From Chitinophaga pinensis (GTDB lineage: Bacteria; Bacteroidota; Bacteroidia; UBA7662), in NCBI GenBank assembly GCA_945874665.1, contig CAMCHJ010000001.1, forward strand, positions 372,001 through 436,000: a stretch of DNA of 64,000 nt. Reading direction: 5' to 3'. Numbering within the stretch: the stretch's first letter is position 1; each line of letters begins with the position of its first letter. The notes below the pieces were generated by a model. It searched no databases and was not told where the DNA came from. It worked only from the letters and a program-made list of their open reading frames with translations. Shown here piece by piece: positions 34,441 to 38,178 of the stretch. A program made the position numbers and the translations under genes.

Positions 34441-35739
34441 TTACAAGCCAAAAGCCTTTTTTACCGGCGCCACCATGTCGAGCTTCTCCCAAGTAAAGAG
34501 CTCTACTTTTACGGTTTTGCTGTCGGATGGGCGGGTACCCCAGCTGATGGTTTTTTCAACCACTTGCGGCTCGCGACCCATGTGACCGTAGGCGGCGGTT
34601 TCGCTGTAAATAGGGTTCAATAATTTGAGGCGCTGGATGAGCATGCCTGGGCGCATATCAAACAATCCTGCGATTTTTTCAGCAATAACGCTGTCGCTGA
34701 GCTTGCGGCCCTCGGCATCTTTCACCTTAGCAGTGCCGTAAGTGTTTACATACAAACCCACCGGCTCGGCAACACCAATGGCATAGGCCACTTGCACCAA
34801 TACTTGCTCGGCAACGCCTGCTGCAACCAGGTTTTTGGCAATGTGACGCGTGGCGTAAGCCGCTGAACGGTCAACCTTCGACGGATCTTTGCCCGAAAAA
34901 GCACCACCACCGTGTGCACCTTTGCCACCGTAGGTATCCACAATGATTTTGCGGCCGGTTAATCCGGTATCGCCATGTGGACCGCCAATTACAAAATTAC
35001 CCGTTGGGTTGATGTGGAATTTGATGGCCTCTGTGAACAAACGCTTCACACGTACAGGTACAAACTTCTTAATGCGGGGCATTAAATATTTATGGATGTC
35101 GGCAGTGATGCGGTCTTGCATGGCCTTTTGATCGGCCTTGGCATTGCCCGTTTTTACAAAATCGTCGTGCTGGGTGCTGATTACAATCGCATCAATCGCC
35201 TCAGGACGGTGCTTTTCGCTGTAACGGATGGTTACTTGGCTCTTCGCATCTGGGCGGAGGTACTTCATCACCTTGCCTTCTTTGCGGATGGCAGCGAGTT
35301 CGCGCAGCAACAAATGACTCAACTCCAAAGCCAAAGGCATGTACGTATCGGTTTCGTTGGTAGCATAGCCAAACATCATGCCTTGGTCGCCGGCGCCTTG
35401 CTCTTCTGGCTTCGATTTTTCAACCCCTTGGTTGATGTCGGGCGACTGCTCATGGATGGCAGAAATAACACCACAGCTGTCGGCATCGAACATATACTCG
35501 GATTTAGTATAACCGATTTTACGGATGGTATCGCGGGCAATTTTTTGCACATCGATGTAGCCTTCGGTTTTTACTTCGCCGCTTAAAACGGCTAATCCTG
35601 TGGTTACCAGCGTTTCGCACGCTACTTTTGAATGAGGGTCTTGGGCCAAAAAGGCATCTACCAAGGCATCAGAAATTTGGTCTGATACTTTGTCAGGATG
35701 GCCTTCTGAAACAGACTCAGATGTAAAAAAATACGACAT
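34441..35739 (-). CDS. metK: S-adenosylmethionine synthase
   Basis: A 432-residue cytoplasmic enzyme that makes SAM from methionine and ATP. Signatures: [52 protein letters not shown] and [21 protein letters not shown]. It is about 45 residues longer than E. coli MetK; the extra length includes loops in the middle and end of the protein, usual in this phylum. It is a single gene, with a SAM-II riboswitch in its leader, so the product should feed back on its own enzyme. Confidence 0.97.
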
Positions 35740-35772
35740 TTTTCGTCAGTTAATGATAAGGTTGAACATAAA

Positions 35773-35792
35773 CTGATTGCATCGAAAGTGCT
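35773..35792 (-). promoter_or_regulatory. Putative anti-aptamer arm of the metK riboswitch
   Basis: On the minus strand AGCACTTT (35792-35785) is the exact complement of AAAGTGCT in the 3' part of the aptamer (35822-35815). The next bases, CGATGCAATCAG (35784-35773), are nearly complementary to CTGATTTGTATCG in the 5' part (35853-35841). The two helices are nested and would destroy the SAM-binding fold. It ends 33 bases before the metK ATG. Pairing was done by eye, without energies. Confidence 0.6.
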
Positions 35793-35810
35793 GCTGGCTT
35801 AGCAAGAAGT

Positions 35811-35858
35811 CTTTAGCACTTTTTTTTACGTGGTTGCAATCGATACAAATCAGTCCAC
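35811..35858 (-). ncRNA. SAM-II riboswitch aptamer upstream of metK
   Basis: Read on the minus strand: P1 5' arm GTGG, then CTGATTTG, the conserved ATTGCAA, P1 3' arm CCAC, an A-rich linker (CGTAAAAAAA), and the conserved GTGCTAAAG. Order and spacing agree with the SAM-II consensus (P1, TGATTT, TTGCAA, A-rich loop, GCTAAA). It lies 72 bases upstream of the SAM synthase start, the expected type of target. No SD follows; the bases after GCTAAAG are ACTTC. Confidence 0.85.
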
Positions 35859-36103
35859 AATGCCACAAAGAAAGCAAATTCCCTTTACTTTACAAAGCTG
35901 GGTGTAGGCATTGGTTTAATTTTCTTTACATCCATTTTTGGCGGTGAGGCTGTCGGGTTCTTTGTTGGCCACCACCAATTAGTCGCCTTTGCTCAGTCAA
36001 TAATTTGAGCGCAAGCTAGTGTTCGCTTGGCTTTAGCAAGTGGTTGCTGGTGTACAGTTGACCACCGTCTAAATTACTAATAATCGGCTGAGGCCGCCTG
36101 GTT
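35859..36103. other. Intergenic stretch, nothing recognised
   Basis: About 245 bases between the metK riboswitch and the E1 gene stop. It should contain the metK promoter, but no full TTG/TAnnTTTG pair was found on the minus strand. No ORF, tRNA or terminator is supported. Confidence 0.4.
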
Positions 36104-38152
36104 TTAGCCAGCCAAGAGGGCAGCCAAGCGGGCTTGCACCTTTTCGGCCGAGGGCAGCATTACTTGCTCTAAACGATCGTTGAGAGGAATAGCAGGCAGG
36201 TTTTCGGCGCCCATGGCATCTACAGGCGCGTCTAAATAACGGAAACAGGCCTTGCTAATGCGGTGTGCCAAGGCTTCAGCAAACGAATTTTGCAACTGCT
36301 CCTCGGTGAGTACCAGTACCTTGCCGTGTCGCTGGGCTGCAGCAAAGCACAGCTCCTCATCAACAGGGTTCAGGGTCCGCAAATCGATGATTTCGACCGC
36401 TCCAGGGAAATGTTTGGCAGCGTTCAGACTCCAATACACGCCCATGCCGTAGGTTATCACGGCACAACTTTCGCCATTTTCTATTTTATGTGGCATGGCT
36501 TCTTGCACCACCCGGCCTTTGCCTAGTGGCACCATATAGTCTTCGTCTGGCTCCACGGTCTTGGCACCATCCGTGCCCGGCACCTTACTCCAATACAAGC
36601 CTTTGTGCTCAAACATCACCACGGGATTGGGGTCATAAAAAGCAGCTTTCATCAGGCCTTTCATATCGGCAGCATTGCTCGGATACACCACTTTAATGCC
36701 CCGAACACTTAAAATAGCCGATTCGATACAGCCGGAGTGGTAAGGACCGCCACCGCCATAAGCCCCGCAAGGCACGCGAATCAAACTCTGTACCGGAAAC
36801 TGTCCGTTGCTCAAGTAGCAGCTCTTGCTGAGCTCCACTACCAATTGGTTGATGCCGCTCCAAATGTAGTCTGCAAACTGTATTTCAACGATGGGCTTGG
36901 TGCCCACGGCCGACATGCCCGCTGTTGAGCCTACCAAATAGGCCTCTTGGATGGGGGTGTTGAACACCCGCTCGTCACCAAATTTATCGGCCAAAGTGGC
37001 TGCCTCACGGAATACGCCGCCGAGGGTGCGGCCCACATCCTGACCGTAAAACAAAGCCTCTGGGTGCTTGCGTAATATTTCTTCCACGGCATGTAGCGCC
37101 GCATCCACCATCACTACTTTTTCGCGACCAGCAGGCGTGCGTACCCCCACTTCTTCGGTCACTGGCGTGGGTGCAAATTCGTGTAAAAAGAGGGAGGCAT
37201 CGCTCGGAATGGCTGCCGCCACCGCAAGGTCAAAATCGGTCTTTACCACGTCAGCAGCATCTGCCGCCATTTTTTGCAGCTCTTCTTCCCAAAATCCGGC
37301 CTCTAACATGGCTTTGTGGAGCTTTACATAGGGGTCTTTTTTGCCGTGTTTGTTTAAATCATCTTCGCTGCGGTACCACTCGCGGCGCACACCCGAAGTA
37401 TGGTGCCCAAGCAAAGGCACGGTGGCATGCACCAAAATGGGTCCGCGCTTCTCGCGCACATGGTCAAAGGCTTCTTGCAACCCTTTGTATGACTTCTCGA
37501 AATCTGTGCCGTCAATTTGCTTCCTTTTGAGGCCCTTAAAGCCCGCCGCATATTCGTAGGCATCCATCGCGCGCATTTCTTTGCCAGTGGCCGAAATACC
37601 CCAGTCGTTGTCTTGCACCAAATACACAATCGGCATCTGATGCAACACCGCCATCTGAAAAGCTTCTGCCACCTCGCCCTCCGTAACGGAGCCGTCGCCC
37701 AGCGAGCACAATACAATGGGTTTTTGGTCGCCAGGTAACAAACCTTGCCGCTCTAGGTAGCCCAGGCCTTGCGCCATGCCTGTAGCAGGAATGGCCTGCA
37801 TGCCGGTAGCGCTGCTTTGGTGGGGAATGGTAGGCATGCCGGCGCGCTTCACCGAAGGGTGCGCGTAATAGGTGCGGCCACCTGAAAAAGGGTCATCGGC
37901 TTTTGCCAACAGCTGGAGCATGAGCTCATAGGGACGAAAACCCATCGCCAACAACACCGACTCATCGCGGTAATACAAGCTCGCATAGTCGTGCGGTTGC
38001 AGCAACAAGCCCGCGGCCAATTGCACGGCCTCGTGACCTTTTGAAGTGGAGTGAACGTATTTGGTAATGGGACGATTTTCGTCGTAAATCTCAGCCATGG
38101 CCCGGGCGGTACTCATCAATTCCCAAGCTCGCTGCATAATAGCTTTCTGCAT
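36104..38152 (-). CDS. Branched-chain 2-oxoacid dehydrogenase E1, alpha and beta subunits fused
   Basis: A 682-residue fusion. The first ~330 residues are the thiamine-diphosphate alpha subunit (TSKGHEAVQLAAGLLL; TPP motif GDGSVTEGEVAEAFQMA ... QDND); from ~345 on it is the transketolase-like beta subunit (ALFYGQDVGRTLGGVFREA, QFADYIWSGINQLV, RVPCGAYGGGGPYHSGCIE). E1 decarboxylates the 2-oxoacids of Val, Leu and Ile and passes the acyl group to lipoyl E2; pyruvate is a possible alternative. The ATG at 38152 is preferred because a -7 box ends at 38171, after which a start at 38173 would not be transcribed. E2 and E3 are not in the window. Confidence 0.93.
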   Translation of the reverse strand: MQKAIMQRAWELMSTARAMAEIYDENRPITKYVHSTSKGHEAVQLAAGLLLQPHDYASLYYRDESVLLAMGFRPYELMLQLLAKADDPFSGGRTYYAHPSVKRAGMPTIPHQSSATGMQAIPATGMAQGLGYLERQGLLPGDQKPIVLCSLGDGSVTEGEVAEAFQMAVLHQMPIVYLVQDNDWGISATGKEMRAMDAYEYAAGFKGLKRKQIDGTDFEKSYKGLQEAFDHVREKRGPILVHATVPLLGHHTSGVRREWYRSEDDLNKHGKKDPYVKLHKAMLEAGFWEEELQKMAADAADVVKTDFDLAVAAAIPSDASLFLHEFAPTPVTEEVGVRTPAGREKVVMVDAALHAVEEILRKHPEALFYGQDVGRTLGGVFREAATLADKFGDERVFNTPIQEAYLVGSTAGMSAVGTKPIVEIQFADYIWSGINQLVVELSKSCYLSNGQFPVQSLIRVPCGAYGGGGPYHSGCIESAILSVRGIKVVYPSNAADMKGLMKAAFYDPNPVVMFEHKGLYWSKVPGTDGAKTVEPDEDYMVPLGKGRVVQEAMPHKIENGESCAVITYGMGVYWSLNAAKHFPGAVEIIDLRTLNPVDEELCFAAAQRHGKVLVLTEEQLQNSFAEALAHRISKACFRYLDAPVDAMGAENLPAIPLNDRLEQVMLPSAEKVQARLAALLAG

Positions 38153-38170
38153 GATCCTATGTTTCACCCG

Positions 38171-38178
38171 CAAAAATA
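38171..38178 (-). promoter_or_regulatory. -7 element of the E1 gene
   Basis: On the minus strand TATTTTTG matches TAnnTTTG and lies 18 bases before the ATG at 38152. It faces away from the -7 box at 38202, with 23 bases between them, so the E1 gene and the oxygenase gene share a compact divergent promoter region. Confidence 0.5.

Follow-up and report, generated by a model that had tools for sequence, protein, structure and literature searches.

An antisense arm that follows the SAM-II aptamer in Bacteroidia metK leaders and may gate a start region without a Shine-Dalgarno sequence

The textbook expression platforms of riboswitches are masking of the Shine-Dalgarno sequence (SD) and transcription terminators. 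Described SAM-II riboswitches use these same two platforms (PMC2258182, PMC1273637, PMC9373788, PMC6061858). The alpha-proteobacterial representatives (RF00521; metA and metZ) resemble the metK leader studied here in aptamer class, in their association with methionine/SAM genes, and in its proposed OFF logic, but differ in platform, which is a terminator at metZ and SD masking at Sinorhizobium meliloti metA (PMC1273637, PMC2258182, PMC9373788); the Sargasso metX SAM-II, unlike our leader, also masks an SD. The "long loop" SAM-II of Bacteroidetes (RF01726; Weinberg 2010, PMC2864571) is like our leader in aptamer sequence, fold, and phylum, although its model of 60 positions holds no downstream arm and our leader has one. 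Three-strand translational riboswitches (aptamer, anti-aptamer, and sequestering strand) share the logic of one strand that serves both to disrupt the aptamer and to close the start. In contrast to them, our leader has no SD/anti-SD pair, its presumed target is an A-rich initiation region, and its arm is antisense to the 5' half of the aptamer. SAM-II aptamers were already known from this phylum (PMC1273637, PMC2864571), and the novelty lies in the expression platform. We found no antisense arm in the published SAM-II descriptions surveyed, the supplement of the 2010 paper (PMC2864571) lying outside the survey, and the Bacteroides leader-end transcriptome publications surveyed do not discuss SAM-II.

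We examined the metK leader in a window of 64,000 nucleotides, the whole stretch of DNA that was analyzed; all positions refer to this window and all leader features lie on its minus strand. A covariance model search (cmscan) of the window returned a full-length match to RF01726 at 35864-35803 (52.7 bits, gathering cut-off 44; E 3e-7), as a sequence-only reading of the DNA had proposed. The P1 strands, placed by the Rfam alignment, are GUGG (35855-35858) and CCAC (35830-35833). The gene that follows is metK (34441-35739; methionine adenosyltransferase, 432 aa; TIGR01034, 513 bits), with 63 nt between the end of the aptamer model and the AUG. In a genome-wide search this was the sole copy, with no further SAM-II above the cut-off. 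The same SAM-II-metK leader was present in three relatives (G001, G002, and G005). Of 395 sampled genomes of the class, 60 carried SAM-II, as did about two-thirds of those sampled from two orders (165/247 and 172/246). Among 21 genomes of the window's own order, four carried it, upstream of metK in every case. The 17 genomes without it include every sampled member of two genera of the same family, which have small genomes (1.2 to 2.2 Mb). Given this absence from 17 of 21 genomes, it seems that the order has lost the switch more than once.

Directly before P1 lies a promoter-like element of the Bacteroidetes type, TTTG-19-TTTCTTTG (35866-35896), recognized by eye. Since this element adjoins P1 and the TTTCTTTG box also occurs in G001, the leader transcript probably starts a few bases 5' of the aptamer. 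Such a start, immediately 5' of P1, would suit an alternative in which the downstream arm described below does no more than fix the ligand threshold and control is exerted through RNA stability, with the SAM-bound pseudoknot near the 5' end or the long anti-aptamer helix altering RNase access. There is a parallel in S. meliloti, where the SAM-II pocket alters mRNA stability and translation alike (PMC9373788). We nevertheless regard control by stability as quite unlikely, as it leaves the pattern of accessibility around the AUG unaccounted for.

Downstream of the aptamer, the strand 35792-35768 can form a perfect helix with AAAGTGCT and a helix with one bulged base with CTGATTTGTATCG. Its inner arm, AGCACUUU (DNA AGCACTTT; 35785-35792), is complementary at 8/8 positions to AAAGUGCU (DNA AAAGTGCT; 35815-35822), a target that consists of the end of the A-rich linker and the beginning of the GCUAAAG strand and whose pairs are kept in three members of the genus. 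The outer arm, CGAUGCAAUCAG plus UUUAU (35768-35784), is antisense to the aptamer 5' half GUGGACUGAUUUGUAUCG (35841-35858) by both duplex and minimum free energy (MFE) prediction. Within it, CGATGCAATCAG (35784-35773) makes 12/12 pairs, one of them G-U, with CTGATT and GTATCG (35853-35848 and 35846-35841) around one bulged U, and the helix continues into P1 by pairing of GUGGA (35858-35854) with UUUAU (35772-35768), mostly through G-U. A second register is available, as UGCAAUC in the outer arm is complementary at 7/7 positions to the core GAUUGCA. The nested helices that had been read from the letters alone are thus present, and the interval then singled out, 35773-35858, runs from the end of the CGATGCAATCAG arm to the first base of P1 on the minus strand. 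Because pairing of the arm in any register disrupts P1 or the binding core, arm and aptamer are mutually exclusive. The outer arm also contains UCAGUU (35771-35776), which is complementary at 6/6 positions to AACUGA (35746-35751), located at -12 to -7 of the metK AUG; sequence and folding point to this as an alternative pairing just before the start.

Without constraints, both the MFE and the centroid structure of the whole leader were the anti-aptamer fold. The predicted energy of this free state was -31.5 kcal/mol versus -19.8 kcal/mol for the aptamer-committed fold, in which the UCAGUU/AACUGA helix forms; the pseudoknot, SAM, and co-transcriptional order are unscored in these values. Given the large gap between the two states and the fact that the aptamer is made before the arm, commitment to the aptamer is probably kinetic. 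The MFE of the whole leader was only modestly below that of shuffled sequences (z, -1.67; 11/200), a value that would fit chance complementarity or a relic of base composition. In a targeted test of spacer against aptamer 5' half, with the spacer shuffled, the window leader reached a z of -3.9. The inner arm had a spacer-shuffle P value of 0.07 in the window and of 0.01 and 0.02 in two congeners.

We compared the leader with those of two congeners (G001 and G002) and of G005 from the same family, all with SAM-II. Over the three helices, the three congeneric species kept 25/25, 24/25, and 22/25 arm/aptamer pairs; among the changes, one pair went from C-G to U-A by a double substitution and several others passed through G-U. 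The UCAGUU/AACUGA helix was retained in G001, where folding predicts a start hairpin whichever state is assumed, and lost in G002 and G005. G005 has also lost the arm register of the window, and another stretch, UGUUGCUUCUGGUCGAC, pairs with its own aptamer (P value, 0.01). As four sequences are too few, conservation was tested across the class.

From 80 leaders we obtained a discovery set of 59 non-redundant Bacteroidia metK leaders. Across this set, the spacer read as an antisense strand of the aptamer's 5' half (mean z, -2.06; t, -11.5; 31/59 leaders at P < 0.05), as scored by duplex energies that leave out the loops an intramolecular fold has to close. Pairing of a spacer with its own aptamer was 3.34 kcal better than with the aptamers of other species, or 9.6 standard deviations (SD units) of permutations that remove phylogeny only in part. 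This preference persisted when each P1 type was analyzed separately and when a strict set (n = 22) was used. With dinucleotide-shuffled spacers, the own-versus-other value was only -0.33 ± 0.23, compared with -3.34 kcal for the real ones, and base composition is therefore no explanation. When the test was first run, on a shorter segment of the aptamer, no signal came from reversed aptamers, and complemented and other-species aptamers were weaker than the leader's own. Since the 5'-half segment had been picked after inspection of the first set, we repeated the test unchanged on 76 new leaders, non-redundant with respect to the discovery set. The result was similar (mean z, -1.92; t, -13.2; 38/76; own-versus-other, 2.72 kcal, again 9.6 SD units), and the reversed control in this hold-out was null. 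The strict set, like the hold-out, speaks against phylogeny as the cause of the signal. Moreover, the dinucleotide-shuffle, reversed-strand, and other-species controls, together with the independent hold-out, oppose chance or compositional complementarity, to which we assign a very low probability.

Because spacers prefer their own aptamer over those of other species, we conclude that the arm co-evolves with the aptamer; by sequence comparison, its identity as a class-wide anti-aptamer is well supported. The covariation asked of the arm in the sequence-only reading is thus seen in both sets, and the fold is not private to the window, as an antisense copy of the 5' half is common in the SAM-II metK leaders of the class. 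The inner arm behaved differently. Its own-versus-other signal against GCUAAAG was -2.9 SD units in the discovery set and 0.2 in the hold-out, too weak for a class-wide feature, and this lack of replication confines the inner arm to the window's genus and some flavobacterial leaders.

Individual leaders varied in how the arm is built. The arm of L062, L086, L088, and L125, GUCAAAUC, is complementary to GAUUUGAC instead of GAUUGC and so appears to hop between two near-repeats of the aptamer. Six Flavobacterium-type leaders (L026, L054, L055, L058, L078, and L132) carry long additional hairpins within the A-rich linker of the aptamer; their arm type, UGCAAUUAUUUUUUCCUC, mirrors the P1 5' strand and core with the loop omitted. 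In L049, the stretch from SAM-II to the metK AUG (about 1300-1500) contains several near-repeats of AAGTGCCT/AGAGTGCCT.

Neither of the described platforms was recognizable. By eye, no GGAGG-like motif was found in the AACUGACGAAAA-AUG stretch of the window leader, and no terminator-like hairpin was found on the minus strand between the aptamer and the ORF, both as first reported from the letters alone. Intrinsic terminators followed the aptamer in 1/59 discovery and 0/76 hold-out leaders, which disfavors a transcriptional SAM-II of that kind. Masking of an SD is likewise disfavored, as there is none here, the phylum lacks them, and the aptamer model ends well before the AUG. It is important to note that the missing SD is no peculiarity of this leader, since Bacteroidia in general are without SDs (PMC6847099, PMC9976891), and that only a minority of known SAM-II elements mask an SD, most being assigned a transcriptional mechanism in the literature, frequently one that involves a terminator (PMC2258182, PMC1273637, PMC6061858). 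Thus, the contrast with known SAM-II elements that was drawn in the earlier reading was partly mistaken.

A transcriptional output could also arise in other ways. The same anti-aptamer could act through Rho: SAM would free the pyrimidine-rich, G-poor arm to load Rho and cause termination before metK, and the anti-aptamer would mask the site. The excess of C over G in the spacer (C-G, 0.091 versus 0.053 in front of metK genes that lack SAM-II), the absence of intrinsic terminators, and the transcriptional nature of the majority of described SAM-II elements (PMC6061858) fit this scheme. However, the C-over-G excess is explained by the arm being antisense to purine-rich GAGGAAAA/GUGGAAAG, and the opening of the start region is left unexplained, so that we consider Rho an unlikely agent. 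Alternatively, the anti-aptamer might be a weak intrinsic terminator by which SAM turns metK ON, for which a U-rich stretch 3' of the arm in several Flavobacterium-type leaders could speak. Most of that stretch can be accounted for as antisense to GAGGAAAAA of the aptamer, the hairpin has few G-C pairs, and in the window it is followed by no U-run. Further, it is implausible that SAM would promote the production of its own synthetase, and we think it very improbable that the arm works in this manner.

In Flavobacterium johnsoniae, initiation is tuned by low structure in the translation initiation region and by A at -3, -6, -12, and -13 (PMC6847099). We compared the predicted pairing of the start region (-20 to +6) behind real and shuffled aptamers. 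It was more open with the real aptamer by 0.049 in the discovery set (t, 4.6) and by 0.057 in the hold-out (t, 5.4); the window leader showed an opening of 0.18 versus 0.01 ± 0.02. In the positional profile over 135 leaders, positions -45 to -30 were more paired and about -12 to +3, the part on which SD-less initiation depends, more open with the anti-aptamer. Action near the AUG, suggested in the sequence-only reading, is probable. The mean opening is small, at 5 to 8 points of pairing probability. In the hold-out, the arm ended 24 to 61 nt 5' of the AUG (10th to 90th percentile; median, 32), just beyond the ribosome footprint. Across the class, there was no enrichment for arms that, once freed, pair directly with the start region (z, -0.19; t, -1.2), and such pairing is rejected as a class rule. 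Thus, here we limit the claim for the class to net opening.

On balance, we favor a translational OFF switch on metK that operates without an SD, a model we hold to be reasonably probable for this locus. At low SAM, the arm would invade the aptamer by pairing with its 5' half (the 5' strand of P1 and the core) and, in the window's genus, additionally with the linker/GCUAAAG strand. With the arm tied up in this way, the positions from about -13 to +5 relative to the AUG would be single-stranded and metK would be translated. SAM bound before the arm is transcribed would leave the arm free to pair upstream of the AUG (UCAGUU with AACUGA in the window), which would close the initiation region and turn metK OFF. 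Since the start region opens with the anti-aptamer and the freed arm can form UCAGUU/AACUGA, we infer that SAM closes the start region and its lack opens it; this should be the sign expected for feedback on metK, and the closing step would be modest in size. For Bacteroidia SAM-II as a class, we give about even weight to a general arrangement whose spacer, placed just beyond the ribosome footprint, copies the aptamer 5' half in antisense and gates an SD-less initiation region. The recurrence of the aptamer and its antisense arm across Bacteroidia suggests how a gene without the usual ribosome-binding sequence could come under such a switch.

With neither SDs nor, in their SAM-II leaders, intrinsic terminators, Bacteroidia fall outside the textbook platforms, and an antisense arm that co-evolves with the aptamer in two independent leader sets provides a concrete, testable one. 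The arm lengthens the annotation of RF01726 in the downstream direction and supplies a rule by which switches for genes of Bacteroidia from the gut and the environment can be designed. If the model is true, translational riboswitching would occur class-wide without Shine-Dalgarno pairing.

Two further features lie near the aptamer. Bacteria of this phylum are reported to avoid AUGs close to start codons; in contrast, the window leader contains an upstream ORF of seven codons (ATG TTC AAC CTT ATC ATT AAC TGA; 35769-35746), absent from G001 and G002, whose stop lies 6 nt 5' of the metK AUG. On the same strand at 36104-38173, a single ORF of 689 aa, with top NCBIfam scores far under the curated cut-offs, combines an E1 alpha-like with an E1 beta-like part of a 2-oxoacid dehydrogenase.
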